NCBI GenBank assembly: GCA_015066105.1
Contig: SVOY01000010.1
Span: forward strand, 19,453-83,452
From: Oscillospiraceae bacterium
GTDB taxonomy: Bacteria > Bacillota > Clostridia > Oscillospirales > Acutalibacteraceae
DNA length: 64,000 bases
Direction of reading: 5' to 3'
This document shows, one piece after another, positions 9,655 through 63,264 of this stretch. The translations under genes and the position numbers were made by a program. The notes beneath the pieces are model-generated. The model saw nothing but the letters and a program-made list of their open reading frames with translations. It had not been told where the DNA came from and did no database searches. The stretch's first letter is position 1. Each line of letters begins with the position of its first letter.

Positions 9655-9670
9655 ACCGAATAAATCAATT

Positions 9671-43927: not shown

Positions 43928-45547
43928 TTAGTTTTTGTTGACTTTGATAGCGGCATTTACTGCTTCTCTTGTTGCAAGCAGCCACTCGCCGTTATGCGGA
44001 TATTCTCTGAATGTTATGCAGTGCTTTCCGTTTTCTTCAATGATAGAAAGACAGGTCTTTTTGTCTGTAAGTGTTTCAAGGGTATTGAGTGCCGCCATAT
44101 CCTGAAGAGCATCAAAGAAAACCTTGAGTCTTAACGAATGATGTGCCGTGCCGTTTTCTGCGGGATACACAATAAAACTGTCGCCTGACGGAAATTCTTT
44201 GCCGGCATCTGTGACCTCATAGGGGTTAACAAGTCCCTTTGAAAATTTTTTGTAATAGAAGTTGTAGCCCCATTGCAGGAAGCCTCTGATATCAAACTTG
44301 AACATCTGATAACCGATGACTCTTGTTCTTACTGAATCGTTGCAGAAAAATCTGTTGGACACACAGTGATTCTTTTGTGCACTGCAATAATATACCCACA
44401 GATTATCGACATTACCTATAAACTTATCTATATGGTCGTTTGCCGGTATCGGATTGGTTACTATGCCTTTTTTATAAAATTTATAATCGGACAAAGCATC
44501 CATAACAATATATCCTTCAAAAAGCTGACGGATATATCTTGCGGCCCTTTTGTATGAAAACATCATTGAAGCGTTGGGCTCATCACTGACGTGGATAATC
44601 ACATTGTTTCTGAGGCCTCTTTCTTCGATATATCCTTTAAGCTCTGCGGAGAAGGCAGCAAGAAACTCTTTGTAAGCTTTTGACATAGCCTTTGTTTTCC
44701 AGCCGAAAAGCTTTTTGTATTCGCCGTCTACCGTTGCCATTATCTTCGGTGCCTTTTTTGCTCCCCATTGGGTGAAGAAGTGTGAAAATTCAAAGTAACT
44801 GATGCCGCATCTGTGTGCCATCTCTATCCATCGGGTGAGCTTATCAAAATTGAATGAATACTTACCGCCGCTGAGAGTAATATCCACAAGCTGCACAGTA
44901 GGTCTTTCACCGCCCACGGCAGTATCCAAAGGAGGGGTGAATATGGGCGTGAGAACACAGTTCATTCCGTACTCTGCTGCTGTTTTAAGGAAATTCTCCG
45001 TTACCCGCCAATACTCATCAGAAAAAGCATCGAACCCGTAATAAGACATAAGGCAGTCGGTGTGGAACCAACAGGTATAAATGAAATCTCTGAAATCAAG
45101 CTCAGCGTCAATAATTTCAATATCAATATCCGCCCTTTTGTCAGCCACGGTAAGGCTTATTCTGTGGCTTCCCGTATCGTTAAGGGCGGCATCAATCTCA
45201 AGCCATACAACTGTTATACCCTTTTTGATATTTATCTTGCCGTCTGCAGGTAAAAGCAAATCGGGGTAATATCCGCTTTCCGAAAATCTGTAATAGTCGT
45301 CGGCACCTTTTTTCCACATAGGGAAATCCGACTTGATATGCTCAACGGTGTAGGTGCGGATGCCTTTAACAGTGCTTTCACACACTAAATCTGCTTTACA
45401 GTCTTCGGTAGCTTCAATTGCAAGCTGAAAGGATTTCTTTTCATTTTTCAGCATAGAAAAGCCTTTGTACTCAACATCAGGCATTTTATCGCTGTCATAG
45501 ATTTTTTCGAGAGAGGATAATATTTTGATGTCTTTTATGTAGGTCAT
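43928..45547 (-). CDS. DUF4091 domain protein (putative glycoside hydrolase)
   Basis: 539 aa; VIIHVSDEPNASMMFSYKRA..., LQWGYNFYYKKFSKGLVNPYEVTDAG. Confidence 0.65.
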   Translation of the reverse strand: MTYIKDIKILSSLEKIYDSDKMPDVEYKGFSMLKNEKKSFQLAIEATEDCKADLVCESTVKGIRTYTVEHIKSDFPMWKKGADDYYRFSESGYYPDLLLPADGKINIKKGITVVWLEIDAALNDTGSHRISLTVADKRADIDIEIIDAELDFRDFIYTCWFHTDCLMSYYGFDAFSDEYWRVTENFLKTAAEYGMNCVLTPIFTPPLDTAVGGERPTVQLVDITLSGGKYSFNFDKLTRWIEMAHRCGISYFEFSHFFTQWGAKKAPKIMATVDGEYKKLFGWKTKAMSKAYKEFLAAFSAELKGYIEERGLRNNVIIHVSDEPNASMMFSYKRAARYIRQLFEGYIVMDALSDYKFYKKGIVTNPIPANDHIDKFIGNVDNLWVYYCSAQKNHCVSNRFFCNDSVRTRVIGYQMFKFDIRGFLQWGYNFYYKKFSKGLVNPYEVTDAGKEFPSGDSFIVYPAENGTAHHSLRLKVFFDALQDMAALNTLETLTDKKTCLSIIEENGKHCITFREYPHNGEWLLATREAVNAAIKVNKN

Positions 45548-45560
45548 ACGGTCACCTCTG

Positions 45561-46667
45561 TCAGTTTTTGTATTTTTCCTTGTATTTCATTACTATTGCG
45601 TTCATTTCATCCATATGAGCCTCCATATCAGCTACAAGCCTGAACTGATTTCTTGCTCTTACGATATTATGCTCTGCATGGGTTGTTCTGAAATAAACGT
45701 CACCCTCAAGGTAGTCGGTAAGGAAACGGATACCGCACTCAAAGGTCATAAGCTTTGCACCGAAGGCAAGATTTTCAATTTCAGCATCACAAAGGCTTTT
45801 TGCTGTTTCGCTGAGGAAACCGTCAACATAAACATCAAAAAGCTCAAGGTCGATGCCTACCTTTGAAAGGTCAGCCTCATCCTCTGCGGCCTTGTTGCCA
45901 CCTGAACGGATGCTGTCTCCGAAGTCATAGAGTGAAAGTCCGGGCATAATTGTATCAAGGTCGATGACACAAATACCCTTATCTGTTTTGATGTCAAAAA
46001 GAACATTGTTGAGCTTTGTATCGTTATGAGTAACCCTTAAAGGCAGAATCCCTTCTGCGATAAGGTCTGTAAGCTTGTGGGTATAAGCCTTGCGGTCAGT
46101 TACAAACTTGATTTCCTCTTCACACATTGCTTTTCTGCCCTTTATGTCACTCTCGACAGCCTTGAGTAAGTTTTCGTATCTTGCAGGAGTATAGTGGAAG
46201 TTTTTGATTGTTTCGTGAAGTGTTTCTGCAGGATATCCGTCAAGAAGCTTCATAAATCTGCCGAAGGTTTTACCTGCACTTCTGAAGATATCGTTGTTTT
46301 TGGGCTTGTTGTAGGTTAAGGCCTCATCAACATAGATGTACATTCTCCATGCACCGTCGTTTTCATCGCGGTAATAGTATTCGCCGGTATTGCAGGGGAG
46401 AAAGTTGAGATTTTCTCTTTTGTAATCTCCGCCGTTTTCCTTGATTTTTTCTGTGATGTGCTTTGTTACACCGACAATGTTGAACATAAGCTCCGCAGGA
46501 TTTTTAAACACAAAGGTGTTGATTTTCTGAAGAATATATTTTTCTTCCTTATCAGTTTCAATAAGATAAGTGGCATTGATAAGACCCGCTGTAAACTGTT
46601 CTACTCTTACAATGCTTCCACCTCTTTCAAAGGCCTCAAATGCGGTTTTTATTTCCTGATTTATCAT
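45561..46667 (-). CDS. phosphotransferase, N-acetylhexosamine 1-kinase (NahK)-like
   Basis: FTAGLINATYLIETDKEEKYILQKINTFVFKNPAELMFNI; RVTHNDTKLNNVLFD; GICVIDLDTIMPG. Confidence 0.75.
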   Translation of the reverse strand: MINQEIKTAFEAFERGGSIVRVEQFTAGLINATYLIETDKEEKYILQKINTFVFKNPAELMFNIVGVTKHITEKIKENGGDYKRENLNFLPCNTGEYYYRDENDGAWRMYIYVDEALTYNKPKNNDIFRSAGKTFGRFMKLLDGYPAETLHETIKNFHYTPARYENLLKAVESDIKGRKAMCEEEIKFVTDRKAYTHKLTDLIAEGILPLRVTHNDTKLNNVLFDIKTDKGICVIDLDTIMPGLSLYDFGDSIRSGGNKAAEDEADLSKVGIDLELFDVYVDGFLSETAKSLCDAEIENLAFGAKLMTFECGIRFLTDYLEGDVYFRTTHAEHNIVRARNQFRLVADMEAHMDEMNAIVMKYKEKYKN

Positions 46668-46688
46668 TTCGTACTCCTTTTCTACCTG

Positions 46689-48455
46689 TCATCCTAACAT
46701 CGGCGTTGCGACAATAGAGATTTCAGGTGTTTTATATTTTTCAAATTCAAAAACAATAATTTCATTCTCATCCTTGAGAATTGCATCGGGTAAGTAAAGT
46801 GCCTTCTGAGGACCGATTTCCCAGTATCTGCCGAGATTGAAGCCGTTGACAAATACATAGCCTTTGGTAAAGCCACTCATATCAACAAAGCATTCACCCT
46901 TGCCTGCCTTAAAGGTACCCTTAAGGAATAGGGGACCGCTTTTACTTTCAGTTTTAAGCTTGCAGAATTTAAGGCTTTCAAGATTATCAAGAGGTATAGT
47001 GTATACATCAAAGTCTGTAAGCACCTGATTGGCAAAATGAACGCTTGAAATACCCTTACGGTCATAAAGCTCTTTGCCGTAATTCACTCTGCCCATTCCC
47101 TCGACGAGTATGCCTATTTCACTTTCAGAGCTTGTACCCTTAACAAAAAGCTGTTTTTTAAGCTTAAGTTTATTTAAGAGTGACTTTTCCTTGCATCTGT
47201 TTATTGTTGCAATTTTCTTTTTTTCAAAGTAAACGTGAGCGTAGTCGTGTACATTGTCAAAGGAAAGAAAGCCTGCATCATACTTGCCTTTAAGCTTTGT
47301 TACATAATAAACCAGACCGAAGTTCTGTCCGTAAGCCTCCATGCTTCTCGGAAGAGGTGAATAATGCTTATGAGCTATGTTGTCAAGATTTTCAAATAAA
47401 TCTGCTGACTCGGTAAGCTTCACGGTGCCGATGCTCTGCATTTTGGGTGATGGAGGAAGCTCCGTCATAGGAATATTCTGATGCTCACAGAGAAGCTTCC
47501 TTATTTTATGGTATGTATCGGTGTAGTCGCCCCATTCGGTCAGGGGCGCACAGTAATCGTAGCTTGTTACTGTAGGCTCGTAGCGCTTGATATGGTTTGC
47601 ACCTGCGGTAAAGCCGAAGTTTGTTCCGCCGAGGAACATATACATATTGAATGAGGCTCCTTGCTTAAGAAATTCTTCAAGCTCGGGGACTAAATTATCA
47701 GCCTTTCTTGTATGATGCTTTTCACCGAAATGGTCAAACCAACCGCACCAGAATTCCATACACATCTTCGGCACATCTCCGTAGGGCTTTAACGCGTTAA
47801 AAGCTGTTGATGCACGGGAACCGAAATTAAGAGTGGGTAAAACACCGTCAATTGTACCGCCTGAAAGCATATTACACCAGGTTCCGTCAGAAGTGAACTT
47901 TAATAAATTCACTCCCAGCTCATCGTACATATCACAAAGCGCGCGAAGATATTTCTTATCGTTGGAGTAACTGCCGTACTCATTCTCAACCTGCACAGCA
48001 ATGATATTACCGCCGTTTGTAATAAACAGAGGCTTGAGAATTGAAAACAGCTTTTCGAAATAATCCTTTACGTGACCGAGGTAGACTTCATTATTACAAC
48101 GAAGCTCCATATTTTTATCCTTTAAAAGCCACGCGGGGAAACCGCCGAAATCCCATTCTGCACAGATATACGGACCGGGTCGCACGATTGCATATAAACC
48201 GAGCTTTTGAGCTGTTTCAATAAACCTTGCGATATCAAGCATACCGCTGAAATCAAACACACCCTTCTGAGGCTCGTGAAGATTCCAGCACACATAAGTT
48301 TCAACAGTATTGAAGCCTGCAAGCTTCAGCTTAAGAAGCCTGTCCTCCCAATATTCAGGGAGTGTACGGAAGTAATGCATAGCTCCCGAATAAATTTTAA
48401 AGGGTTTTCCGTCAAGATAAAATTCGTTGCCTTTAATTTCAAATGAATTTGCCAT
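46689..48455 (-). CDS. GH35 beta-galactosidase
   Basis: FYLDGKPFKIYSGAMHYFRTLPEYWEDRLLKLKLAGFNTVETYVCWNLHEP, VQVENEYGSY, MCMEFWCGWFDHFGE, MYMFLGGTNFGF. Confidence 0.92.
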   Translation of the reverse strand: MANSFEIKGNEFYLDGKPFKIYSGAMHYFRTLPEYWEDRLLKLKLAGFNTVETYVCWNLHEPQKGVFDFSGMLDIARFIETAQKLGLYAIVRPGPYICAEWDFGGFPAWLLKDKNMELRCNNEVYLGHVKDYFEKLFSILKPLFITNGGNIIAVQVENEYGSYSNDKKYLRALCDMYDELGVNLLKFTSDGTWCNMLSGGTIDGVLPTLNFGSRASTAFNALKPYGDVPKMCMEFWCGWFDHFGEKHHTRKADNLVPELEEFLKQGASFNMYMFLGGTNFGFTAGANHIKRYEPTVTSYDYCAPLTEWGDYTDTYHKIRKLLCEHQNIPMTELPPSPKMQSIGTVKLTESADLFENLDNIAHKHYSPLPRSMEAYGQNFGLVYYVTKLKGKYDAGFLSFDNVHDYAHVYFEKKKIATINRCKEKSLLNKLKLKKQLFVKGTSSESEIGILVEGMGRVNYGKELYDRKGISSVHFANQVLTDFDVYTIPLDNLESLKFCKLKTESKSGPLFLKGTFKAGKGECFVDMSGFTKGYVFVNGFNLGRYWEIGPQKALYLPDAILKDENEIIVFEFEKYKTPEISIVATPMLG

Positions 48456-48489
48456 TTAATATCTCCTTTATTAAGGATAGTTTAATATT

Positions 48490-49056
48490 TTACCAAAGCT
48501 TTTCGGGATAAATGCCATCGACAATTTTCTTCTTGATAGCATCAACAACAAGCTGTTTATCCTCCTTATATGTAACGCCGTACCACTTTTCTGTGGTGTC
48601 CATAACCTTAACACTGATTTTGCCTTCTTTAAGCAGTTCGTCAACAACAAAGGGCAGGAAATATTCGCATTTGAGCATATTATCGGCATTTTTATCAAGG
48701 AAGGCAGCAAAGCGGTTTTTAAGCTCTGTCATCATCATACCGCTGAAGCCCCAGCAGTTCATTGAAACTGTGCTGTCTCTTTCAAGCTCGGTCCGGCTTT
48801 CACCGTCGTCTTCGGTAAACATTATCTTACCGTTTCTGAGAGCGATTTTTGTTCTCTCAACAATATCTGTAAGGTAACCCTCTTCGTTTGTCTTGCATAC
48901 ACCTCTGGCTACGTGGCCGTTTTCTGTAAGTGTGTTTTCGATTTTAAAGCCTACCATACAGAATTCATTATCGTTTTTATTTTTCTTGAGCTCGTTACAG
49001 ATAAGTCTGAATGTCTCTTTACCGTAATTACCAAGGTAATCTCTTTTATAAAACAA
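48490..49056 (-). pseudogene. 5'-truncated sugar-phosphate nucleotidyltransferase (TTG pseudo-start)
   Basis: Begins at YLGNYGKETFRLICNEL, matching the mid-protein (A)DDYYGKEAF region; catalytic N-terminal half absent; in-frame TAA just upstream. Confidence 0.6.
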
Positions 49057-49312: not shown

Positions 49313-50079
49313 TTATTTCTTTGAAGCTGATTTTTCAGCAAGTCTCTTTTCCTTCTGAGCCTTCTTTTCAGCCTTGAGTTCTTTGTCTGCCTTCTTTTCC
49401 TCAATATAAAGAGCTTTTAAGGCTTCGTCGATCTGATCTTCTCTGTCGTAATAGCCTTCAAGCACCTTGAAATCAGGCTTAACAACTGTAGGAGCAAAGG
49501 AGTAAACAACACTCTTGATAGAAGAAACCTCCGCACTCTCCTGCGAATTGGGAGAAAGAACGTGAATAAGATTTTCGTATGAATCGTTGAAGAAATAGAA
49601 GCAGAAGTGAAGCAACAGGTTGAAAAGCATTACGAGAGCACATTTTGCAATATAAGCCATTGTTTCACCGAAAAGCATACCTTCACCTACGATGAGGGGA
49701 AGCTTATCATATGGGAACCACACCGTTGCAAGGCATATAATTGCAGTTGGAATTGCCATTGTTACTATGTAGGGTCTGTATTTACCTGCTTTGTTTCTGG
49801 TATTATCGATGATGTTTGCTCTGATTCCGGTAAGAGGAATATTAGCAAGCACTGCGATAACATACATAATATACATATCGGTGGGATTTATACCCAATAC
49901 GCTCGAAAGCAAGGTGTTGTTTGTAGAAAGGATACAAGCATTACCTATCATCGCAATAGCGTAAGCGCCGATACAGCCGCCGCAATAAGCGGCTATTTCC
50001 TAAAGGTAATGTACTTGCCTTGCATGGGGATGTTCCAATATAATCGGACATCCGAAAGAATACTTTTGATTTTGTTCAT
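49313..50079 (-). pseudogene. GPH/MFS sugar transporter pseudogene (1-nt frameshift plus internal deletion)
   Basis: ATG at 50079 MNKIKSILSDVRLYWNIPMQGKYITFRK*; other frame continues AAYCGGCIGAYAIAMIGNACILSTNN...; C-terminal part jumps from SIKSVVYSFAPTVV to DFKVLEGYYDREDQIDEALKALYIEEKK. Confidence 0.75.
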
Positions 50080-50100: not shown

Positions 50101-50319
50101 TTATAAAATACTCTTGATCCGTTCAAGAGAAAATTTTGCAAATACAATCTTCCGACAATCAGCATCAGGCTCAAACATCGCACCGATATTTCCGTCCGGC
50201 AATGCTGTCATAGCAATGTAAACAAAATCGACCTCTTTAAGTATGAAGCTGTACTTAAAGGTCTCGCCGGCATCTTCACAGATGCTGACTGTTCTGCACT
50301 TTCTGCCATTTCTGTTGTT
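50101..50319 (-). pseudogene. C-terminal remnant of sialidase (exo-alpha-sialidase)
   Basis: Minus-frame NNRNGRKCRTVSICEDAGETFKYSFILKEVDFVYIAMTALPDGNIGAMFEPDADCRKIVFAKFSLERIKSIL* resembles the terminal Asp-box/LPDGxIGxxYE...FSLEWL region. Confidence 0.55.
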
Positions 50320-50537
50320 TTAACCTCTATCATATTTTATCTTTTTATACTTTCATTTGCTTTTGCAATTTTTAAGCAGCTTCAGGTAAACATAACACCA
50401 ACTCGTTTAGTGTATTGATAAAATATCTGAAAGTGATTATATAATACTTGTATGGTAATTTTCAATATAAATTAATAATATAAAACTAAAATTCGTTTAA
50501 ATATTAAACGGATACAAAAGCCTCACTAAAAAATGCT

Positions 50538-50763
50538 GCTTTGCGGCCCTCTTGCGGTGCCCAAAATCGCTTTTCGGCTTGGAGCGCCAAGCGATTTTGA
50601 CCGCTGCGCCATCCTCACCTTGCTTCATCGCCCGCAGGGCGCGCTTCGGTGACGATGCCCGACACGCTCCGCGTGCCTCGGGTTCTTGATTCTGCTGTAT
50701 TTATAAAAAGAAAAAGACACCGCGTTTGCGATGTCCTTTGGCAGGGGCAGAAGGGCTCGAACC
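50538..50763 (-). repeat. 227-bp tandem duplication, copy 1
   Basis: gctttgcggccctcttgcggtgcccaaaatcgctt...ggcaggggcagaagggctcgaacc. Confidence 0.9.
50739..50763 (-). pseudogene. tRNA-Trp 3'-end fragment (short copy)
   Basis: minus GGTTCGAGCCCTTCTGCCCCTGCCA = T-loop to CCA. Confidence 0.6.
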
Positions 50764-50992
50764 GCTTTGCGGCCCTCTTGCGGTGCCCAAAATCGCTTTT
50801 TCGGCTTGGAGCGCCGAGCGATTTTGACCGCTGCGCCATCCTCACCTTGCTTCATCGCCCGCAGGGCGCGCTTCTGTGACGATGCCCGACACGCTCCGCG
50901 TGCCTCGGGTTCTTGATTCTGCTGTATTTATAAAAAGAAAAAGACACCGCATTCGCGATGTCCTTTGGCAGGGGCAGAAGGGCTCGAACCCT
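50764..50992 (-). repeat. 227-bp tandem duplication, copy 2
   Basis: Near-identical to copy 1 with a few substitutions and one inserted T. Confidence 0.9.
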
Positions 50993-51010
50993 CGGCACGC
51001 GGTTTTGGAG
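50966..51010 (-). pseudogene. tRNA-Trp 3'-half fragment (anticodon loop to CCA)
   Basis: minus CTCCAAA-ACCGC-GTGCC-GAGGG-TTCGAGC-CCTTC-TGCCCCT-GCCA; no 5' half (no AGGGGCA / GCGGT upstream). Confidence 0.7.
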
Positions 51011-51174
51011 GATAGTATTCTTTCCTTACATGGTGCGGTTTTGAAGGCTTCGGGGGACATGTCGAGGGACATATTGATTTTATTTCATAGATTTTTTATT
51101 GTATTTTTCGTACATTCGACTCATCTCCTACTATGCGGTAGAATGAAGCTACCAAGTAACAAGGAGGTCTTTTT

Positions 51175-51330
51175 ATGAGCAAAAAAGTCAAAATAAAATT
51201 TACGGATTTTGAGTGTAATTTGCTTGTCAATGGTATGAATGAGTTTCGCAATATGCTTTTATCAGAAGGTTTACCAACTGAGGATGTCGATGACCTGCTC
51301 ATTAAAATCATTGACAAATCCGAAAAGTAG
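51175..51330 (+). CDS. small mobile-element-associated protein (51 aa)
   Basis: AAGGAGGT RBS; MSKKVKIKFTDFECNLLVNGMNEFRNMLLSEGLPTEDVDDLLIKIIDKSEK. Confidence 0.65.
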   Translation: MSKKVKIKFTDFECNLLVNGMNEFRNMLLSEGLPTEDVDDLLIKIIDKSEK

Positions 51331-51344: not shown

Positions 51345-51617
51345 ATGTCAAGTGTTATAGAAGAATTATATTACGGAAATCTTGAACCGCAAGAGCTTAC
51401 TACCGAAATTACTCCAAAACTTAAAAAGAAATTGGGCCAGCTTGTAAAAAAAGAGGAAGAACTGTCAGCCATACTACCCCAAAAGGAAAAAGAACTGTTC
51501 TCAAAATATGTGAGCGCTTACAATGAATTTTCGAGCATTGGTAATTCTGACAGTTTTATTTCCGGCTTCCGGCTCGGAGCAAGATTTACATACGATACCT
51601 TTGTAAAAGGCAAATAG
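51345..51617 (+). CDS. DUF6809-like protein of integrative elements
   Basis: MSSVIEELYYGNLEPQE...YNEFSSIGNSDSFISGFRLGARFTYDTF. Confidence 0.65.
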   Translation: MSSVIEELYYGNLEPQELTTEITPKLKKKLGQLVKKEEELSAILPQKEKELFSKYVSAYNEFSSIGNSDSFISGFRLGARFTYDTFVKGK

Positions 51618-51760
51618 TATAGCCTGTTTTAATTATCAAGAGTTGCTTCGCTTCTTCTCTTGACAACAAAAACATTCTATGCTCGCTTGGAATTACGAGG
51701 GTAAGGCCCTCAAAATATAACATTTTAAGTTATCACTTATATTATCAAGGAGGATCAATT

Positions 51761-52120
51761 ATGTCAAAGAAAATCCAATACCGTCGTGTCGGTGATTATT
51801 TAATCCCTAATCTCATCATACCGCCCGAAGAAGCAAATGTCACTCTCGGTAAATGGGGTATGATGCATAAGACCTATCTAGAAAAACATAAGAAGGTATT
51901 TTTTAACACGCTACTTATGCAAGGTAAGCTTTATCAGCATTGTGCCGAGGTTGAGAAGCAGGCTACAGAAATGTTTTACCTTTTGATTGAGCAGATGAAA
52001 AATGCTCAGGGTGTAACTGAAAAATTAAAAGAACAAAAACAATTTGAATGGATACAGAAAATGAGCAACATTCAGCAACAGGCAAGAGAGCTTGTATGTA
52101 ACGAATTGATATATGTATGA
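51761..52120 (+). CDS. TnpV family transposon-encoded protein
   Basis: YRRVGDYLIPNLIIPPEEANVTLGKWGMMHKTYLEKHKKVFFNTLLMQGKLYQHC. Confidence 0.75.
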   Translation: MSKKIQYRRVGDYLIPNLIIPPEEANVTLGKWGMMHKTYLEKHKKVFFNTLLMQGKLYQHCAEVEKQATEMFYLLIEQMKNAQGVTEKLKEQKQFEWIQKMSNIQQQARELVCNELIYV

Positions 52121-52185: not shown

Positions 52186-52968
52186 TTATGCAAAAAGTGA
52201 GGTAACAGCTTCAAAAATCATCTTGAAGAAAGCAATAATACCATCAAAAAAGCTGATTGAAACTGAGAAATCGGGTGCAAACCTTAAAACTGTGGGAAGA
52301 GTAGTCTTTTCGTCGTACTTCTCAATCTGAACTGTGTGTTCTCCGATTGTGAGATACTTGTAAGGAATCTTGCAAACACCGTTTTCATCGGGTGTGATTT
52401 CAACAGTTTTGCCGTTGTAGCCCCAAGTAAGAGTGTAACCTGTTACGGGCATTTCCTTGGTTACAGCATTCCAGTTTTCATCGTAAACTGTGTCCATGCT
52501 TGTGAATGAGATGATGCCATCACTGAGCTTTTCTGTGTTGATGACGGGATACTGCATACCTGTGTTCCAGGGATCACCGTAATACATAACGATCACATCG
52601 CCATCCTCTACTTTGTAAGCACTTACGCCTACATCGGGAGAAACGCCGTCAACCATATATGACCAGCCGTCCCACATCATCGCTGTGTAAGAGCCTGCAA
52701 CAATACCGTTGATGTCAACAAGGTAGGGACCGTAGTCTGAGTCAACGATTGTAGCAGTGAGGCTTTCGTCAGCCTCGTCTGCAGCCTTGATTACATCGAG
52801 AACGGTTGCATCTGCATTTACTGCAACATCACCGTAAAAAAGGCATTTGTCAATACCCTCAATGCGAAGTGAAACAGTTGTGTCTGCAGCAAATGAGCAA
52901 ATAGCAAATGCTGAAATGAGCATCATAGCCACAAGCATAATGCTGAGTGATTTTTTGAACATTTTCAT
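52186..52968 (-). CDS. secreted DUF4430 (transcobalamin C-terminal-like) protein with C-terminal hydrophobic segment
   Basis: Signal peptide; SLRIEGIDKCLFYGDVAV...WDGWSYMVDGVSPDVGVSAYKVEDGDVIVMYYG. Confidence 0.75.
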   Translation of the reverse strand: MKMFKKSLSIMLVAMMLISAFAICSFAADTTVSLRIEGIDKCLFYGDVAVNADATVLDVIKAADEADESLTATIVDSDYGPYLVDINGIVAGSYTAMMWDGWSYMVDGVSPDVGVSAYKVEDGDVIVMYYGDPWNTGMQYPVINTEKLSDGIISFTSMDTVYDENWNAVTKEMPVTGYTLTWGYNGKTVEITPDENGVCKIPYKYLTIGEHTVQIEKYDEKTTLPTVLRFAPDFSVSISFFDGIIAFFKMIFEAVTSLFA

Positions 52969-53046
52969 TTTTTGTTCATTCCTTTCAATTAAGATTTTTA
53001 TGTAAGCTTATCCTTATCGTGCACTATAAAGATAAGTCGTTACCAA

Positions 53047-53964
53047 TTAATAAGAGTTACCTATATCTTCACCCATGTTACAGGTAAATGAGAACACGAT
53101 CACATCACCGGGCGAAACAGAGTAAGAGCTTGTACCCACATCAGGGAATACTCCGTTAACGCTGTACATCCAGCCAGACTGTGTACCGCAGTCCTTTTCA
53201 TAAATCTGATGTATACCTTCTATATAGTAGTTGTTAAATGCAGGCGTGTAAGTGTATTCTATCTGTACTCCATTTGCTTTACAGTATTTGCAGTTGTCGG
53301 TACAGACATTTTCTTCGCAAGCCTTTTTTATAACATCAAAGGCACTCTCACCGCCATTAAGTTCGACTTTAACATTATTGAGAATTACACCGTTTGAAGG
53401 CAGAAAATCTTTTTTGCCACTCTTTAGCTTTGAAAGATTATCATATATCGTATTGCACTTTATTCTGACTGTGCAATATTTTTTCATTTCTGTAGTAACC
53501 TGCGTTGTCGGTGCAGTTGTTGAAGGCTTGGTAGTAGCAGGTTTTGTAGTGATGGTTGTTGGTTTTGTTGTCGTAATAGGTTCGGTTGTTGTTACTTTTG
53601 AAGTTGTTTGTTTTTTTGTTGTAGTCGGCTTTGTAGTAGTAGCTTCTGTTATGGTTTGCTGTTTGGTTGTTGTAGGTTTTGTGGTTGTAGCCTCGGTAGT
53701 GGAATATGCCGTAGTTGATTCAGTTGTGGTGACAGATGTTGTAACTACCGTGTTGGTTTCTGTTGCGGTTAGCGTTTCGGTTGTTGTTTCGGTTTCAGCC
53801 GCAACTGAACTGCTTTCAGGCACAGCTGTACTTGTCGTCAAAGCGGTTATAGCTGTTGCCGGTGCGGTTGATGTTGGTGCATTTGTTGGCTGCTCGGTTT
53901 CACCGCAAGCAGTTAATGTGAAGATTATCAGAAGAATACAAATTAAAATATTAAACTTTTTCAT
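53047..53964 (-). CDS. lipoprotein with Thr-rich stalk and DUF4430 domain
   Basis: Lipobox LTACGE; long TTTKPTTTK stalk; GWMYSVNGVFPDVGTSSYSVSPGDVIVFSFTC. Confidence 0.75.
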   Translation of the reverse strand: MKKFNILICILLIIFTLTACGETEQPTNAPTSTAPATAITALTTSTAVPESSSVAAETETTTETLTATETNTVVTTSVTTTESTTAYSTTEATTTKPTTTKQQTITEATTTKPTTTKKQTTSKVTTTEPITTTKPTTITTKPATTKPSTTAPTTQVTTEMKKYCTVRIKCNTIYDNLSKLKSGKKDFLPSNGVILNNVKVELNGGESAFDVIKKACEENVCTDNCKYCKANGVQIEYTYTPAFNNYYIEGIHQIYEKDCGTQSGWMYSVNGVFPDVGTSSYSVSPGDVIVFSFTCNMGEDIGNSY

Positions 53965-54682
53965 TTTTACACTCCAAAGAAAATATACCGTATTTTATTC
54001 TCAGTCGATTGAATTTGTCTGTCATAGGTTTATTGATAAAGAAAAGCAGAATACCTGTTATTATGCCGTGAATGAAATTGAAGCTCATTCCCGAAAGATA
54101 AATCTTCAAGGCAGATTTAAAGGTAAAATCTGTGCTCATCATAAGAAAAGAACAACTGTCAACTATCATTCCGTAGACTATAAAGCAAGTAAGTCCGCCG
54201 ACAATGCCTACTGCAAGGTTTTTGTTTGAGTAAGGCTTTTTATGAAAGATCAGTCCGCAGATAAAGCCAACAAGTCCCATACCGAGCATCTGAAAGGGTG
54301 TAAACATTCCCTGACCAAAGAAGAGATTTGAAACAAACATTGAAAGGCTTCCCGTAAAAAATCCGACATTTGGACCGAAAGCTATTGCTGTTACAATTAC
54401 AAGGGCACAGGTTGGTTTAACTTGTGGTATATATGCCATAACTGCCCTTGATGCGACGCAAAGTGCAATCATAACGGAAAGTGTAACAATCTCACTTGTT
54501 TTGATTTTCCTTTGCTCAAAGAAGACGTAGAAAGGAATGATTGAAAGAATGATTATAGAGACAGCGGCAATATAATAGTTTCCTTCCTGAAAGATGTTCA
54601 AAGAGAGAAACATAATTATCGGTGTCAGAATTAAAAGTATAATTACGGATATTACGGTCAGCTTATGAGATTTATTCTGCAA
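53951..54682 (-). CDS. ECF transporter S component (candidate cobalamin specificity)
   Basis: Multi-TM; TLSVMIALCVASRAVMAYIPQVKPTCALVIVTAIAFGPNVGFFTGSLSMFVSNLFFGQGMFTPFQMLGMG; B12 riboswitch-linked operon. Confidence 0.75.
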   Translation of the reverse strand: MQNKSHKLTVISVIILLILTPIIMFLSLNIFQEGNYYIAAVSIIILSIIPFYVFFEQRKIKTSEIVTLSVMIALCVASRAVMAYIPQVKPTCALVIVTAIAFGPNVGFFTGSLSMFVSNLFFGQGMFTPFQMLGMGLVGFICGLIFHKKPYSNKNLAVGIVGGLTCFIVYGMIVDSCSFLMMSTDFTFKSALKIYLSGMSFNFIHGIITGILLFFINKPMTDKFNRLRIKYGIFSLECKNEKV

Positions 54683-56322
54683 AGCTCAAGCACCTGCCTT
54701 TCCGTAACGGCAAGAGGAAAGAAATCCCTTGCGATTTTATTGGCGGTAGTAGTATAGAAGAAATTCTGTGAAAAGAACTTATTTTTTTCTGCCTGTAAAG
54801 CACACATTCCGTCAAAAATCATTGCACATTCATCACAATGCTCTGCACAGAATTCCGTATCGTGGGACACCATAACCACTGTTATTCCATTTTCATTCAG
54901 TTCTTTGATTTTGCTTGCAAACTGCTTTTTAAAAAGGTTATCCATGCCCTTTGTCGGCTCATCGAGGAAAAGTATCTGCGGCTCTTTTAACAGAACCATA
55001 CATAGGGCTGCTCGTTGCAGTTCACCGCCGCTTATATCATAAGGGTGTCTTTCCAAAAGGTCGGTTATTTCACAGAAAGAAGCGACTTCCATAATCTTTT
55101 CGTTTCTCTCTTTTTTGTCGGGTACGCTTTTAGTCAGTGCTTTATCAAGGTCTTCTCTTACAGTGTAACCACCGAAAAGGCTTTCACATTTCTGCGGAAG
55201 TACACCGATAGTTTTGCCGTAAAGCTCATCAGATTTATATTTATTGATATTCTTGCCGAAAAGCTTAATTTTGCCCTGCTTGCATGGTAAAAGTCCACTC
55301 ATAAGTGAAAGTGCCGTTGTTTTGCCTGTTCCGTTTGCTCCAAGCATTGCAAAAAATGAGCCTTTTTTTATTTTCAGTTGGAGACCTTTTAAAACGTATC
55401 TGCTTTTATCATAGGCAAAGAAAACATCTTTCGCTTCAACGGCATATTCGGTTTTTCTTTCAGTATTCGTTTCGTCAAGCTCTGTTTGCTTTGGCTTTTC
55501 AGCAAAGAGAGAAGAAAGCATCTGTCTGCCCTCTGCAACATTGAGAGGTACGAAAGAAGTAAGCTCTAAATCTGCGTGCAATCTCATAGAGGTTGGTACT
55601 GCAGAAGAAAGAAAGTCATTACTCTTGATTAGCTCTGACGGAATTTCACTGGGAGTTGTGTCAGATATGATTTCACCCTCATCAATTACAATTACTCTGT
55701 CAGCTATGGGGATAAGACTTTCCAATCGATGCTCAGTGATAATAACGGTGATTCCGTTTTCCCTGCAAAGCTTATAAACAGTATTCAGCAGAGTTTCTGT
55801 CGCCATTGGGTCAAGCTGTGAGGTAGGTTCATCGAAAACAATCACATCGGGATGCATCATAAGAATTGAGGCAAGGCATACCATCTGCTTCTGACCACCC
55901 GAAAGCTCAGAGATTTTTTTGTCAATTATATTTTCCAGAGAAAAGTAAGCTGATATTTCAGCAATGCGAAGTCTGATAGTTTTGCTGTCAAGACCAAGAT
56001 TTTCAAGACCGAAAGCAAGCTCACTTCGCACAGAGTGGGTAACTGCTTGATATTCAGTATTTTGCAGAAGAAAACCTATCTTTTCGGCAGAGTCTCTGAA
56101 AGAGAATTTATCACTGTCAAAGAAAGTTATCTTACCTATTTTAATTCCATGGGGTGTAAGCTCAGGCTTCAGCATACGAAGAAGAGTTGACTTTCCGCTG
56201 CCCGATTTTCCGCAAAGAACGATAAACTCTCCTTGATTTATAGTGAGATTTATATTTTTTAGAGCCTTCTTTTTATTATCGGGATAAGAAAAAGAAAGGT
56301 TATTTATTTTGAAATTGACCAT
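54658..56322 (-). CDS. ECF transporter duplicated ATPase (EcfA1-A2 fusion)
   Basis: Two Walker A (GKSGSGKSTLL, GANGTGKTTAL) and two ABC signatures (LSGGQKQ, ISGGELQ). Confidence 0.9.
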   Translation of the reverse strand: MVNFKINNLSFSYPDNKKKALKNINLTINQGEFIVLCGKSGSGKSTLLRMLKPELTPHGIKIGKITFFDSDKFSFRDSAEKIGFLLQNTEYQAVTHSVRSELAFGLENLGLDSKTIRLRIAEISAYFSLENIIDKKISELSGGQKQMVCLASILMMHPDVIVFDEPTSQLDPMATETLLNTVYKLCRENGITVIITEHRLESLIPIADRVIVIDEGEIISDTTPSEIPSELIKSNDFLSSAVPTSMRLHADLELTSFVPLNVAEGRQMLSSLFAEKPKQTELDETNTERKTEYAVEAKDVFFAYDKSRYVLKGLQLKIKKGSFFAMLGANGTGKTTALSLMSGLLPCKQGKIKLFGKNINKYKSDELYGKTIGVLPQKCESLFGGYTVREDLDKALTKSVPDKKERNEKIMEVASFCEITDLLERHPYDISGGELQRAALCMVLLKEPQILFLDEPTKGMDNLFKKQFASKIKELNENGITVVMVSHDTEFCAEHCDECAMIFDGMCALQAEKNKFFSQNFFYTTTANKIARDFFPLAVTERQVLELCRINLIS

Positions 56323-57179
56323 TTTCTTTCCTCCCGCAAATCATAAAGTGTCGGTAATAAAAGCACAAATGCGATAACTGTAATTAAAAGTGTAGCTAAA
56401 ATATCGGGCATTGGTATATCAATAACAGGGTTATAGTTGGATTTATATTTTGTACCGACGAAGAAGAATATTCCCGATGCGATAAGTGAAAAGAGAAGGA
56501 ATAAAGCATCCTTCACAGAGAAGCTATAACTGTTAAATGATGTTCTGCCGTGAAGTCCGTAGCCTCTTGCTTTCATCGAGTCGGAAGAGTCAATGCCTTT
56601 TTCAAGTGTCCATGAGATAAGAATTGAAAGCCTTCTTGCACCGTGACGGATTTTACCTATAAAGTCTTTTTCTGTAGGTAGATTACCGACACCTTTTTCT
56701 GCTTTTTTGATTTCTTCCGACTGACTTCTTACAATGGGGATGAAACGAAGCACCATTGAAATGACGAGTGCCGTTTTAGGCGATATTCTGCCGAAAAGAA
56801 AAATAAATTTATCACTCGTTATTATCTCGTTAAAGCTGTTAAGCCACAAAAGAGCCGAAGCAGTACGGATTGAAAAAACAAAGCCGAAAACAAGTGCTTC
56901 AAGAGTGAAATTATTTCCACTCGGCATTTTGAAAAGGACGGTAACACCGTAGTGGCTGAATATGCCGTTGAAAAAAGTTATAAGACAAATCATCGGCATA
57001 ATAATCTTCAGAAAGAATGAAACCGCCTTTTTACCTGAAAGCTTAATATCGTAAATCAGTCCTGTAATAAAGCTGACGGCAAGCAGTAAAGGATGTGATG
57101 CCGTCATACTCAGCACGAAGGCAAAGACGAAAAACACAAAGGCTGATATGGGATGTACTGATTTAAAGCCCAACTGCAT
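56304..57179 (-). CDS. ecfT: ECF transporter transmembrane protein EcfT
   Basis: 291 aa multi-TM; KARGYGLHGRTSF (ARG motif). Confidence 0.85.
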   Translation of the reverse strand: MQLGFKSVHPISAFVFFVFAFVLSMTASHPLLLAVSFITGLIYDIKLSGKKAVSFFLKIIMPMICLITFFNGIFSHYGVTVLFKMPSGNNFTLEALVFGFVFSIRTASALLWLNSFNEIITSDKFIFLFGRISPKTALVISMVLRFIPIVRSQSEEIKKAEKGVGNLPTEKDFIGKIRHGARRLSILISWTLEKGIDSSDSMKARGYGLHGRTSFNSYSFSVKDALFLLFSLIASGIFFFVGTKYKSNYNPVIDIPMPDILATLLITVIAFVLLLPTLYDLREERKWSISK

Positions 57180-57198
57180 TTTTCATTCCTCTTTCCTT

Positions 57199-58539
57199 TT
57201 ATTTCTTATTAAATAAAGTTATGATTTTTGCGATTATATTTTTAATAGCATCTATTATTTTTTGCAAGAGAGACTGAATACCTGTTTTTCCTTCTCTTAA
57301 TGCGAAGATATTTCCTGAATCATTTTTATAGTAAAGTGTACCGTCTTCACCTGCGGATACGGTGCTGATGCAGTACTGCTGCATATCTGTGTCAGGAGTG
57401 AAAAGCTCCGTTTTAACTACGGAGGTCTGTCCCTGACTGTCCTCAAAAGCAGTGATTCCGCCTGGCTTTGCATTATATGTCGAATAGATATAAATCTTTC
57501 CACTTGTTTGTTCGTATCCTGTTGAAATAAGCATAGAGGCCTGCGGATAGCCCTGCATATCGGCGGTGTAAATCTCTTTCATTGTTTTTGCATCAAGTAC
57601 AATAAATTTACCTGCGGAGCCGTTCTGACAGCCTACATAAAGTCTGCCATTATATACAACAGGGGTAGCGGTGACTGCTCCCGGAGCAGTGTAAGTTTTA
57701 AGTGAACCTAATTTACCTGATGAATCCATAGAGAATTTATAGATGTATCCTGCTTTACTTGAGGTGTAATATAAGCCGGTTTCAGCGGAATATGTAACTG
57801 ATGAACGGATGTCACCTTTGACGGCAAGGCTTGAAACAGCTTTACCCGTGCTTTTATCAAGAGAGATAATCTTTGAACTGCTTTCACTGTTCTTTTTGCC
57901 GTCATCCTTGCCGAAAATAACATATTTATCCGTTACACAGCAGCCTGCCCAATAAAAACCGCCGAGAGCTTTGTAAGTCCACTTTGCGTTTTTACTTTCG
58001 GTTTCTTTTTTTGTGTTCTCGTCTTTTACACTCAGGCAGACATAGTTAGCGTATTCTGTTTCATCGACCCAGAAGCCTGAGTAAATATATCCGTTATCGT
58101 ATGTAATCGGACACAGAGCCTGACCGCCGATAGCGTCGGTATAAACCCAAAGGGACTCCATTGTTTCATAATCGAAAGCCTGAACAATACCCTCGTCAAG
58201 AGAAACGAATATTTTTCCGTCAGCATAAAGAGGTGAAACGGTAGTATAAAGAGTTGAGCCTTCCATTTTTACACTTGCTATTTCTTCACCTGTTTCGGCG
58301 TTCAGCTTATAAAGCTTTACACCTGACACGAGAAGTACAGTGTTACCTACAACTACGGGTGGAGTAGGTGCTGCCTTATAGTTGCCACCGAATTTTTTCG
58401 AGAAAAGCAGTCTTGCTTCAGATGTTGGTGTTTGTGCAGATGCAATTCCCGTGTAAGCCTGACTTTGAGCATGAGCGAGCATACATAAGGATGAAGCAAA
58501 GATAATTAAAGCAAGTAAAAGTGATAATGTTTTTTTCAT
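57199..58539 (-). CDS. secreted PQQ-like beta-propeller protein
   Basis: Signal peptide; repeated YKLNAETGEEIASVKMEGSTLYTTVSPLYADGKIFVSLDEGIVQAFDYETME-type blades. Confidence 0.75.
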   Translation of the reverse strand: MKKTLSLLLALIIFASSLCMLAHAQSQAYTGIASAQTPTSEARLLFSKKFGGNYKAAPTPPVVVGNTVLLVSGVKLYKLNAETGEEIASVKMEGSTLYTTVSPLYADGKIFVSLDEGIVQAFDYETMESLWVYTDAIGGQALCPITYDNGYIYSGFWVDETEYANYVCLSVKDENTKKETESKNAKWTYKALGGFYWAGCCVTDKYVIFGKDDGKKNSESSSKIISLDKSTGKAVSSLAVKGDIRSSVTYSAETGLYYTSSKAGYIYKFSMDSSGKLGSLKTYTAPGAVTATPVVYNGRLYVGCQNGSAGKFIVLDAKTMKEIYTADMQGYPQASMLISTGYEQTSGKIYIYSTYNAKPGGITAFEDSQGQTSVVKTELFTPDTDMQQYCISTVSAGEDGTLYYKNDSGNIFALREGKTGIQSLLQKIIDAIKNIIAKIITLFNKK

Positions 58540-58542
58540 AGC

Positions 58543-58830
58543 TTATTCCTCAGTTTTTCTTTGTATATTACGGCTCTTTTCTAATTTTTTAAGCCCCATT
58601 AACCGTTGAGCCTTAGCCTTTCCTGCATTTCTTTTTTTTGGCTTTTCTGCAGTAGGATTAGGTTCTTTCAGCCCTGCATATTCCAAAGCTCTCGGCCACG
58701 GTCCGAGATAAGCTTTTATATGAGATATCTCGATGGGTTCAAAATCCGCTTTTTTGGGTACTCTGCCGAGTTTTTCAGCTTTCTGCCTTAAAAGATCAGC
58801 AGCATAATTCTTTTTTTCTTCTGAAATCAT
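58543..58830 (-). CDS. small protein with homing-endonuclease-associated (HNH_repeat)-like motif
   Basis: LGRVPKKADFEPIEISHIKAYLGPWPRALEYAGL. Confidence 0.5.
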   Translation of the reverse strand: MISEEKKNYAADLLRQKAEKLGRVPKKADFEPIEISHIKAYLGPWPRALEYAGLKEPNPTAEKPKKRNAGKAKAQRLMGLKKLEKSRNIQRKTEE

Positions 58831-58840
58831 TGTTAATCAC

Positions 58841-58882
58841 CTAAATAAAAATACTCTTTTAGCCATAAAGGTTAAAAGAGTA
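58841..58882 (-). terminator. riboswitch-controlled intrinsic terminator
   Basis: minus ACTCTTTTAACC-TTTAT-GGCTAAAAGAGT ATTTTTATTT between riboswitch and first ORF. Confidence 0.7.
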
Positions 58883-59009
58883 CAACAGATTTTCGGTACG
58901 TCAAAACACGCCTTTGATGAAAGCAAAAAAATAAGAATGCAAACCTCAAAGCCGACAAACGGGCGATAAATCGGTTGCACTCTTCTCACCAAAGTTGTGT
59001 AAAACCTAA

Positions 59010-59200
59010 AAGACACGGCAGGTATCCTGACTTATGATGCAGTGGTATAGACCACTCCGGGAACACTCCTTCTCAGAAAAAAATCCAATGGCAATAATGC
59101 TCCCTCTTGTCAAATACAGTAATGGCGGTTGCTCCGGATTCGAACCGGATTCCCTTTTACATCTACTCAGCTAACAACTTTTCAAACCGTATCTTTCATA
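59010..59200 (-). promoter_or_regulatory. cobalamin riboswitch
   Basis: minus AAGGGAATCCGGTTCGAATCCGGAGCAACCGCCATTACTGT...TTGCCATTGGA...AAGTCAGGATACCTGCCGTGTC (B12 box). Confidence 0.9.
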
Positions 59201-59265
59201 TCAAAATATTTAATTTAACTAATTATAACACTTTTATTTAATTTTTTCAATAGTTGGCTACAAAT

Positions 59266-59940
59266 TTATCTTTCTACTCTGTAAAGCATACAGGGTCTGC
59301 CGCCTGTTTCGTAGTTTATCTCACCCTGAGCCTTGCCCGACTCAACGAGATAGTTCATATATCTTCTGACGGTCACGGCGGTAAGTCCCGTTTTTTCAGC
59401 TATTTCATCACCTGTCAGCCATTTGCTTTGATTTTCTTTCAGGTGGTCAAGAATAACAGAAAGCGTCTTTTCCTGTATACCTTTGGGATGTAGGTCTTCG
59501 CTTTTTTTACGGGAGGAATCCATAATGAAATCTATGCTTTTCTGATTGAGAATGTCAAGTTCATCCAAAGCCTTATGCTGTGCAATGTATTTCTGCAGAG
59601 CAATCTGAAAACGCTCAAAGGTAAAGGGCTTTACAAGATAATCCACTATTCCGAGGTGTAGAGCTTCTTCCAACGATTCACGGTCATTAGCAGCAGTAAC
59701 CATAATTACATCAGTTGAAATTTGCTTTTTTCTTATCTGACGTAAGGTTTCAAAGCCGTCAAGCTTTGGCATATAAACATCCATTATGATAAGGTCAACA
59801 CTGTTTACTTCCAAAAACTCAAGGGCAGAAAGTCCGTCCTTGCACTTACCGCAAACTGAAAAGCTTTTGTTCTTCAGTATATACTGCTCGTTTATCATTG
59901 CGACCATTGGGTCATCTTCAACTACCAACACCTTATACAT
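59266..59940 (-). CDS. CitB/DcuR-type response regulator
   Basis: MYKVLVVEDDPMVAMINEQYILKN...DLIIMDVYMPKLDGFE; C-terminal HTH TGLTAVTVRRYMNYLVESG. Confidence 0.85.
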   Translation of the reverse strand: MYKVLVVEDDPMVAMINEQYILKNKSFSVCGKCKDGLSALEFLEVNSVDLIIMDVYMPKLDGFETLRQIRKKQISTDVIMVTAANDRESLEEALHLGIVDYLVKPFTFERFQIALQKYIAQHKALDELDILNQKSIDFIMDSSRKKSEDLHPKGIQEKTLSVILDHLKENQSKWLTGDEIAEKTGLTAVTVRRYMNYLVESGKAQGEINYETGGRPCMLYRVER

Positions 59941-59956
59941 TTTCTTTGCCCCTTTC

Positions 59957-61576
59957 TTATTTCTTAAAACTGACGGTAAAGGATGCACCTATACCCTCCT
60001 GTGACTCAACAGTTATTTTACCGCCTGCATTTTTCACAAGATTTTTCACCTGATAAAGACCTGTTCCTCTACCGGCACCTTTGGTAGAAAAGCCGTTTTC
60101 AAAAATACGGTCAATATTGCCTTCTTCTATACCTGAGCCTGTATCGTCAGTTGTCATGAGAAGAGCTCCCGGATTTGAATACATACCGAAAAGAAGCTCC
60201 TTTTGTCCGTTATAATTCATATCATTCATTGATTCAAAAGCATTGTCAATAAGGTTGCCTATAACCGTAACAAGAATCTCAGAAGGTACAGATATATCTG
60301 TCGGTGAATAATAGCAGCCTTCTCTTAAAACAAATTTTACATTAAGCTCAGAAGCTCTTGCAATCTTGCCGATAAGCAGAGCCGCAACAGCAGGCTCGTT
60401 GATGCAGTTCATAACCTTACTTATGGTTTCACGCTGTACCATTGTTATGTTCTGAATGTATGAGGTAGCCTCACTGTACATTTCCATCTGTATAAGTCCG
60501 AGAATAACATGGAGCTTATTGGTAAAATCGTGGTTATTTGCTCGCATAGAGTCCACAAGATATCTTGTACCTGTAAGGTCTTCCATCAGCTTAGTGTATT
60601 CCTTTCTATCGTGAAGAATACCGACTGTACCGATAACGGAATCATCCTCTTTAATAGGTATGGTATCAATAAGAATATTATCGTCGCCAGAACTTACAGA
60701 ATGGCTTGCATCCGTACTGCAAAGCAGATTAAGAGAAGAAATCGACTTGCTTAAGCTTTTGATATCCTTTCCTACAAGACTTTCTTCGTCACTGTCACTT
60801 GTAAGCATTTCGACTGCGGATTTATTCACAAATTGAATTGTCCCTTCGCTGTCAACCGCCACTATTCCCTCATCAAGGGATTCAAGAATATTATCACGCA
60901 TACGGAACATTGATGTAAACACATCGGGCTCATAGCCTAAAAGACTTTTCTTTATTTTACCGGAAAGCTCTGCTGAAATAAGCAGTTCCATCAGAATGGC
61001 AACAATGGTAATAAGTGTGAAAATGAGAATAATCTGCACTATTTCGGTTTTGATGTTTTCCATAAGCATAATTGCCATAACAAATCCGGTGTAGTTACCG
61101 TCCTCATCATATATGGCTGCATATGCTCGTCTCTGCATGCCTGAAGGTCCGTTGTCTGTTGTTGCATAATATCCTTGGGAGTTTTCTCTGAAGTTCGGCA
61201 AGGTTCCGTCATAAATGCTGCCTATAAGCTCGTGATTTGAGTGATAAAGACGTACAGTATCTCTGTTAACCACGGAGATAACATCAATGTCCTCAAGAGT
61301 ATCACGGAGGGAATCAAGATATTCCGTAAGTACGGCGGAATTAACGGCATCTGAGCTTTTTTCACCGAGAAGCGGTGACTGTGCAATAGCCTCGGCCACA
61401 TTCTGCAGATTCTGATCACGGCGTTTTGTTTCAAACTGAACATTTATAAGCGACCCCGCCACACCTAAAAACAACGCAAGGGTAACGATGAGTATGATCT
61501 GAAACCTGAAGGACATTTTCTGAATACTGCCGAGAGTGTATGTCTCTTTTTTTGAGCTTTTTACTTTTACTGACAT
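59957..61576 (-). CDS. CitA/DcuS-type sensor histidine kinase
   Basis: TM-extracellular sensor-TM-PAS; RANNHDFTNKLHVILGLIQM; DDTGSGIEEGNIDRIFENGFSTKGAGRGTGLYQVK. Confidence 0.88.
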   Translation of the reverse strand: MSVKVKSSKKETYTLGSIQKMSFRFQIILIVTLALFLGVAGSLINVQFETKRRDQNLQNVAEAIAQSPLLGEKSSDAVNSAVLTEYLDSLRDTLEDIDVISVVNRDTVRLYHSNHELIGSIYDGTLPNFRENSQGYYATTDNGPSGMQRRAYAAIYDEDGNYTGFVMAIMLMENIKTEIVQIILIFTLITIVAILMELLISAELSGKIKKSLLGYEPDVFTSMFRMRDNILESLDEGIVAVDSEGTIQFVNKSAVEMLTSDSDEESLVGKDIKSLSKSISSLNLLCSTDASHSVSSGDDNILIDTIPIKEDDSVIGTVGILHDRKEYTKLMEDLTGTRYLVDSMRANNHDFTNKLHVILGLIQMEMYSEATSYIQNITMVQRETISKVMNCINEPAVAALLIGKIARASELNVKFVLREGCYYSPTDISVPSEILVTVIGNLIDNAFESMNDMNYNGQKELLFGMYSNPGALLMTTDDTGSGIEEGNIDRIFENGFSTKGAGRGTGLYQVKNLVKNAGGKITVESQEGIGASFTVSFKK

Positions 61577-61755
61577 AACTAAAGTCTTCTTTCATTTTGC
61601 TTTCTGAAGTTATAATAATAGATTTTTCGCTTTTTGAAAAGGTTTTGAAAGTAAAATAAATGCAGAAAATCATAAAAAATTCTTTGTATCTTTTGAATAA
61701 TTGTAAATAAGAAAATTCGGTGCTACTATGAGTCAAAAAACAAAGGAGCGATTTT

Positions 61756-62028
61756 ATGGGTCCAATATTTGAAACAATTATGCTTGTATGCTTCGGCTTT
61801 TCCTGGCCGATGAATCTTATCAAGTCATACAATGCAAAAACTGCAAAGGGTACAAGTCTGCCGTTTATTCTGCTTATCATCACAGGTTATATAGCTGGTA
61901 TCACAGCTAAAGTCGTGGGTGGTCAGATTAACTATGTGCTTCTAGCTTACATCTTAAATCTTGCCATTGTGCTTATGAATCTTGCAGTATATTTCAGAAA
62001 TTCAGCATTAGACAAAAAGAACGCATAA
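61756..62028 (+). CDS. SemiSWEET/PQ-loop family small membrane protein
   Basis: 90 aa, 3 TM; FGFSWPMNLIKSYNAKTAKGTSLPFILLIITGYIAGI. Confidence 0.7.
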   Translation: MGPIFETIMLVCFGFSWPMNLIKSYNAKTAKGTSLPFILLIITGYIAGITAKVVGGQINYVLLAYILNLAIVLMNLAVYFRNSALDKKNA

Positions 62029-62040
62029 GGGGAAACGGTT

Positions 62041-62607
62041 ATGATACAAGAAAAAAACTATTTAGTACTCAACGAACTTGCAGAAAAGGATGGCACGGTT
62101 ATATTCGGCGGTAAAGAGGATATGAGCATTCCTCTTTGTGAATTAAAACAGGCATTTAGGCTTGATTCGAAGTTTTACAACAGAAGTTCTGATAACATCA
62201 ACATTACAAACGCCAAAGAGCTTTATGAAAGCTGTGTTGCACCTCTTGAACCCGATACCGTACTTCTTCATATAGGTGAAAATGACCTCGAATTGTTTGG
62301 CAAAGATCCTGATAAATTTATCAGTCTTTATCGTGAACTCATCAGTGAAATCAGATCCGACAACAAAAAATGTCGTATTGCAATAGTATCTCTTAAAAAT
62401 TATGATGGTGATATTATTACTGAGAGGTTAAACGAACAGCTTAAGTATCTTGCCGATTCAGAGAGATGTGAGTTTGCAGATATAGCAGAAAAGAAGATCT
62501 GGAATCCGATTGCTACAAGAGATGCGGTTTCGTTTGCAGATTTATTAGGAGCTAAGGTTAAGAAGCCGATATATGATTTGGCAAAAATATTGTTTTGCTA
62601 TGTGTAA
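62041..62607 (+). CDS. SGNH/GDSL-like hydrolase-fold protein
   Basis: TVIFGGKEDMS, VLLHIGENDLELF block-III-like. Confidence 0.5.
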   Translation: MIQEKNYLVLNELAEKDGTVIFGGKEDMSIPLCELKQAFRLDSKFYNRSSDNINITNAKELYESCVAPLEPDTVLLHIGENDLELFGKDPDKFISLYRELISEIRSDNKKCRIAIVSLKNYDGDIITERLNEQLKYLADSERCEFADIAEKKIWNPIATRDAVSFADLLGAKVKKPIYDLAKILFCYV

Positions 62608-63240: not shown

Positions 63241-63264
63241 TATCGTGAAAAGAAAGGACTTTCT

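Follow-up and report, generated by a model that had tools for sequence, protein, structure and literature searches.

Integrative mobilizable elements (IMEs) with a tyrosine integrase that insert into the 3' ends of tRNA genes, such as IME_Sag2603_tRNAlys, NBU1 (tRNA-Leu) and NBU2 (tRNA-Ser), are close to the element considered here, with which they share one complete and one partial tRNA copy, a relaxase, variable cargo, accretion in tandem and possibly the lack of a conjugation apparatus (PMC5704250). A complete and a partial tRNA copy at opposite ends are the usual signature of such an integration (PMC9897764). The IMEs in the table passages of PMC5704250 considered here measure 6-15 kb, whereas the present element is ~30 kb; its target, tRNA-Trp, is not among the tRNA targets of those passages, and it differs from such elements in its left end, composed of a 51-aa ORF, DUF6809 and TnpV, and in the cobalamin-regulated ECF cargo of genomes G000 and G031. 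The clostridial mobilizable transposons of the Tn4451/Tn6104 type, on the other hand, resemble it in having TnpV and a mobilization gene, and TnpV of Tn4451 has been postulated to be Xis-like; yet they use the large serine recombinase TnpX and a 2-bp target, unlike the tyrosine recombinase and the ~45 bp tRNA core found here (PMC3158075). The papers considered on TnpV and DUF6809 deal mainly with Tn4451-type elements, and a Tn4451-type identity was considered and rejected, since the recombinase is of the PF00589 tyrosine type rather than a large serine recombinase like TnpX. By sequence, the closest solved relative of the integrase is 6emy/6emz (E 3.5e-14, query residues 204-367, i.e. the catalytic part only), which we take to be the Tn1549 integrase; both proteins are tyrosine recombinases, and the present one has been found at one site, tRNA-Trp.

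In this paper, we describe a junction in the window, i.e. the whole stretch of 64,000 nucleotides analysed (G000:C4:19453-83452), the right end of which is the end of contig C4. We consider that window positions 50963-51010 are, with a probability of roughly 0.93, the distal attachment junction (attL) of an IME which uses a tyrosine recombinase and has the anticodon-loop/3' half of tRNA-Trp as its target, and that its other end lies on contig C25 of the same genome. The family appears to be undescribed, although the mechanism of tRNA integration is well known.

The tRNA-Trp fragment and the probable left end of the element

The preliminary description had read the minus strand here as the anticodon loop to the 3' end of a tRNA-Trp that lacks its 5' half, and both points are borne out. 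Window 50966-51010(-) corresponds exactly to nt 32-76 of tRNA-Trp, from two bases before the CCA anticodon through the encoded 3' CCA, and the DNA right of 51010 is element sequence that is conserved in other genomes, with the tRNA 5' half absent. Window 50963-51010 is identical in 48 of 48 positions to G000:C25:4153-4200 (sequence search, E = 1e-18 and 8e-19), where a complete tRNA-Trp was called by ARAGORN at C25:4156-4231(-); this intact gene is the sole near-full-length tRNA-Trp match in G000. The comparison of fragment and intact gene that had been proposed thus finds no divergence over 48 bp, and a tyrosine recombinase gene adjoins the intact 3' end. Nor was a complete tRNA found at the junction itself: ARAGORN called no tRNA in the window, and Rfam gave none in the window at gathering score and none at E<=1 in 50300-51250. 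The features around the junction are as follows.

50538..50735, strand not assigned: copy 1 of the R repeat (a GC-rich palindromic dispersed repeat) with a spacer and a terminator; the short tRNA piece lies to its right
50736..50763, minus strand: truncated tRNA-Trp 3' piece, nt 53-76 (50740-50763) plus 4 nt, abutting R
50764..50935, strand not assigned: copy 2 of the R repeat, flanked by the short tRNA piece on the left and the 48-bp core on the right
50936..50962, minus strand: terminator-like stem, GGACATCGCGAATGCGGTGTC and a T run, after the tRNA 3' end, read from the sequence
50963..51010, minus strand: probable attL core, matching the locus of the intact tRNA-Trp in all 48 bp (nt 32-76 of the tRNA at 50966-51010)
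51052..51075, plus strand: paired 12-bp direct repeat GGGGGACATGTCGAGGGACATAT, candidate integrase arm-type sites, 42-43 bp inside the left end
51175..51330, plus strand: 51-aa ORF, with which the conserved left-end module begins; the copies of G031 and SIG612 are 76% identical to it
51345..51617, plus strand: DUF6809 protein (PF20648, E 6e-25)
51761..52120, plus strand: TnpV (PF14198, E 7e-42)

It might be thought that the fragment resembles a tRNA by chance, or that it is a degenerate pseudogene that has nothing to do with mobility, as truncated tRNAs arise by other routes too, e.g. from a CRISPR spacer (PMC9897764); with an identity of this extent (E about 1e-18) and with the core standing at element ends across species, such an origin is exceedingly improbable. 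On the chromosomal side of the core the terminator reads GGACATCGC...GCGGTGTC, and the stem of 50936-50962 also follows the fragments in G005, G011, G031 and G032. Further out on this side, the gene block of window 43928-49056 has a counterpart, 81-92% identical, next to the fragment of G005 (L053, on G005:C63), where its orientation relative to the fragment is the opposite one. A truncated MFS_2 transporter gene (window 49313-49951, profile positions 24-141 of 427) lies near the junction on the chromosomal side, and elsewhere in the window a lysine riboswitch (9668-9837) is located upstream of the ORF 9836-10864.

TnpV and DUF6809 had been placed on the element side, and they do lie there, at 51345-52120, right of the core. 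The 51-aa ORF that precedes them (51175-51330) matched no family. In G000, G003, G005, G031, G283, G372, G450 and SIG612 the core fragment is succeeded by the left-end module; similar left ends are present in G003, G005, G031, G283, G372, G449 and G450, similar right ends in G003, G005, G032, G449, G450 and others, and TnpV homologues are found near the left end of related elements. The pair of 12-bp direct repeats recurs at both ends, at a distance inwards of 42-43 bp on the left and of 135-137 bp on the right, and its members are candidate arm-type sites of the integrase. It comes in two forms, GGGGGACAT (type I) and GGGGGGCACAT (type II), which agree between the ends of the genomes with both ends readable (I/I in G000, SIG612 and G450; II/II in G005 and G032). 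The two types are told apart by six columns of the integrase, of which two belong to the N-terminal region; a type I/II split at integrase residues 4 and 14 was set aside, as it may simply follow phylogeny.

The probable right end on contig C25 and a complete relative in SIG612

On the 3' side of the intact tRNA-Trp of C25 come the genes of the integrase, an HTH protein and a ParB-domain protein, and then a relaxase gene that is truncated at its 5' end. The integrase is a tyrosine recombinase of 388 aa (PF00589, L007:2667-3833), the gene of which adjoins the tRNA 3' end. The HTH protein has 77 aa, its G005 homologue is 98.7% identical and matches HTH_17, and its position suggests an Xis-like role; the ParB-domain protein is a homologue of the one in G005. 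The relaxase-like protein of G000 is 94% identical to residues 129-487 of a relaxase and lacks residues 1-128. The PF03432 nuclease domain occupies residues 41-172 of the G005 homologue, most of it is thus lost in G000, and the truncated protein had no Pfam match. As the N-terminal catalytic domain is missing, the relaxase of the G000 element can probably not mobilize it. Bases 6-113 of C25, next to the truncated relaxase gene, hold the start of a divergent DUF6809. A relaxase match that begins at residue 129 beside a divergent DUF6809 occurs twice in the genome, at G000:C25:6-1291 and G000:C9:62742-63522, and may represent either a recurrent truncation or a genuine short form of the relaxase.

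The preliminary description had taken the fragment for the attachment-site remnant of an integrative element. The att junction stands, but it is more than a leftover scar, as the other end is probably still in G000. Since the two ends are on separate contigs, C4 and C25, we infer their linkage into one element. The middle part (rep, MobC and the N-terminal part of the relaxase) was sought in the G000 assembly, which is 85% complete, and was not found; together with the start of C25 at the divergent DUF6809 and the truncated relaxase, this means that the G000 copy is either rearranged or incompletely assembled.

The missing middle could also mean that the attL in the window was left by another, perhaps older, element, the integrase end of C25 being a separate, later integration at tRNA-Trp, in which case the window would hold a decayed cis-mobilizable remnant. 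The tRNA-Trp gene is indeed reused: in G031 a prophage-like element comes first at tRNA-Trp and the IME next, with a shared att copy, and in G450 the right end of the IME abuts another integrase. Both cases match the tandem accretion described for IMEs, which is reported to be frequent among them (PMC5704250). Nevertheless, the arm repeats of G000 are of one type at the left and the right end, the left module matches elements that end in the very integrase of C25, and a second integrase end for the window element was not found, so that separate integrations are unlikely. The prophage-like element of G031, a reading that rests on gene sizes and sequence, lies in G031:C17:1-38000 (L055, L075, L056), at the tRNA-Trp core and in tandem with the IME.

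A single IME between fragment and intact gene is what a relative displays. A search with the integrase found 100% identity in SVQH01000001.1, a contig of 166,571 bases from the Oscillospiraceae MAG SIG612, in which ARAGORN places an intact tRNA-Trp at 136391-136466 and a 3'-half fragment lies at ~166.50-166.54 kb. An element bounded by these two in a relative had been suggested as a check, and here it is, on one contig, with 30.07 kb from fragment to intact gene. In the orientation of the window, the order in SIG612 is fragment, 51-aa ORF, DUF6809, TnpV, cargo, RdRP-family protein, Cys_rich_VLP homologue, 637-aa protein, MobC-like protein, relaxase, ParB-domain protein, HTH protein, integrase, terminator and intact tRNA-Trp, the protein families having been assigned from the G005 homologues. 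The family has a relaxase of its own (PF03432 in G005), to which the SIG612 homologue is 95% identical, and MobC of SIG612 is homologous to the PF21983/PF05713 protein of G005; no mating-pair apparatus was recognised among the profile-scanned proteins of the G005 right end. The RdRP-family protein, of 1014 aa, belongs to PF05183 (RNA-dependent RNA polymerase family, E 7e-14) and is encoded at L072:8310-11354 (G005), L124:12219-15263 (SIG612) and, in part, in L073; it adjoins a ~310-aa partner in three of the IMEs. It had no sequence match among solved structures, and we presume that it may be YonO-like.

The R repeat beside the junction

Left of the core, a direct duplication of ~226 bp holds the second, shorter tRNA-Trp piece (50736-50763), which the preliminary description had overlooked, and the body of this duplication is the R repeat. 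There are about 13 copies of R in G000. When 41 distinct copies from four genomes were inspected, 15 proved to have an intact tRNA at a distance of no more than 400 bp, compared with a chance expectation of about 1.4% calculated from 40 tRNAs in 2.48 Mb, and all 15 are accompanied by a truncated copy of the adjacent tRNA, which comprises either 5' nt 1-22 or 1-38 or else the 3' end. Several copies that were read by eye have, on one side of R, a segment of the tRNA in inverted orientation. At tRNA-Trp itself, R separates a truncated tRNA-Trp from a full one in G015, and it interrupts the att fragment in G005 and G032. The R loci considered are window 50538-50962 and L135, L136, L138, L139, L158, L164, L170-L172, L179 and L181. 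Rfam returned for R only a sub-threshold match to a plant miRNA, which was taken as chance.

As copies of R abut the site and the 28-bp piece 50736-50763, and truncated copies accompany R at tRNAs other than this one, the core fragment could be supposed to be one more partial tRNA duplication of the R-linked kind, with no integration involved. This is very unlikely: the search for the R pattern in SIG612 gave no match, and the core fragment nevertheless stands there at the element end; conserved element DNA follows the core in eight genomes, and in several of these there is no R next to the core; and the tRNA-Trp piece linked to R in the window is the shorter one. Given the lack of a match in SIG612, R is not part of the IME. 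Tentatively, and with a little less than an even chance of being right, we propose that R is an undescribed class of small repeats that inserts into the arms of tRNA genes and that it entered the tRNA-Trp locus independently of the IME.

Proposed integration, cargo and the family

The element would integrate by its tyrosine recombinase into the anticodon-loop/3' half of tRNA-Trp. Upon insertion, the 3' half brought by the element would restore a complete tRNA at the right end, which is now on C25, while the 3' half of the chromosome, together with its terminator, would be displaced to window 50963-51010. From 51011 rightwards the element would comprise the arm-type repeats, the 51-aa ORF, DUF6809, TnpV and then the cargo, and at its C25 end the relaxase remnant, the ParB-domain protein, the Xis-like HTH protein, the integrase, the arm-type repeats and a terminator. 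Excision would be carried out by Int with an Xis-type factor, and mobilization presumably by a helper conjugative element.

The direction of the exchange can be read indirectly in G003, where the fragment has ACTTGAACC, and the intact tRNA beside the end of the element has GCTCGAACC. As integration would predict, they differ in the T-arm, with GGACTTGAACC in the fragment and GGGCTCGAACC in the intact tRNA at the right end; the fragment seems to keep the T-arm of the host, the other having been supplied by the element, which places the crossover somewhere from the anticodon loop to the T-arm. The two copies of G000 share GGGCTCGAACC and so do not bear on the direction. The T-arm bases also differ between fragment and intact tRNA in G372, a case that was set aside because no end of an element adjoins the intact tRNA there. 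A comparison with empty sites by gene synteny failed, since the gene order around tRNA-Trp differs between species, and an intact tRNA-Trp followed by the terminator of the window was found in none of about 30 relative loci.

Beyond TnpV the window continues with the following genes.

52186..58830, minus strand: cargo operon with two DUF4430 proteins, ECF S component, ABC ATPase, CbiQ-like T component, beta-propeller and HNH-associated repeat protein
59000..59206, minus strand: cobalamin riboswitch (Rfam) upstream of the cargo operon, at the same place in G031
59266-59988, minus strand: response regulator (cargo), 87% identical to that of the G031 element
59957-61576, minus strand: sensor kinase (cargo), 78% identical to that of the G031 element
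61756-62028, plus strand: small ORF (cargo), 91% identical to that of the G031 element
62041-62607, plus strand: GDSL-type hydrolase (cargo), 72% identical to that of the G031 element
62670-63795: DUF3842 and a second ECF S component, running on to the contig end, outside the assigned cargo

Homologues of the ABC ATPase (47% identical), the CbiQ-like protein (34%) and the HNH-repeat protein (56%) of the operon, and of the response regulator, sensor kinase, small ORF and GDSL-type hydrolase, occur in the same order in G031:C17:38000-53298, between TnpV and the RdRP-family module. On account of this shared gene order and riboswitch, window 52186-62607 was assigned to the element as cargo, and the element side would reach rightwards to at least 62607. 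The riboswitch, the ECF components and the DUF4430 proteins, which we assume to be linked to transcobalamin-like proteins, suggest that the operon takes up cobalamin.

The IME family is thus delimited by both of its ends, the integrase, the candidate arm sites and the cargo, and its hosts are uncultured gut Oscillospiraceae/Clostridia, many of the records coming from ruminant and deer gut samples. The paired repeats offer a direct handle for finding more copies of it. As the cobalamin-riboswitch ECF operon and the two-component system are apparently carried along by the element, a vitamin-acquisition trait would be horizontally mobile.
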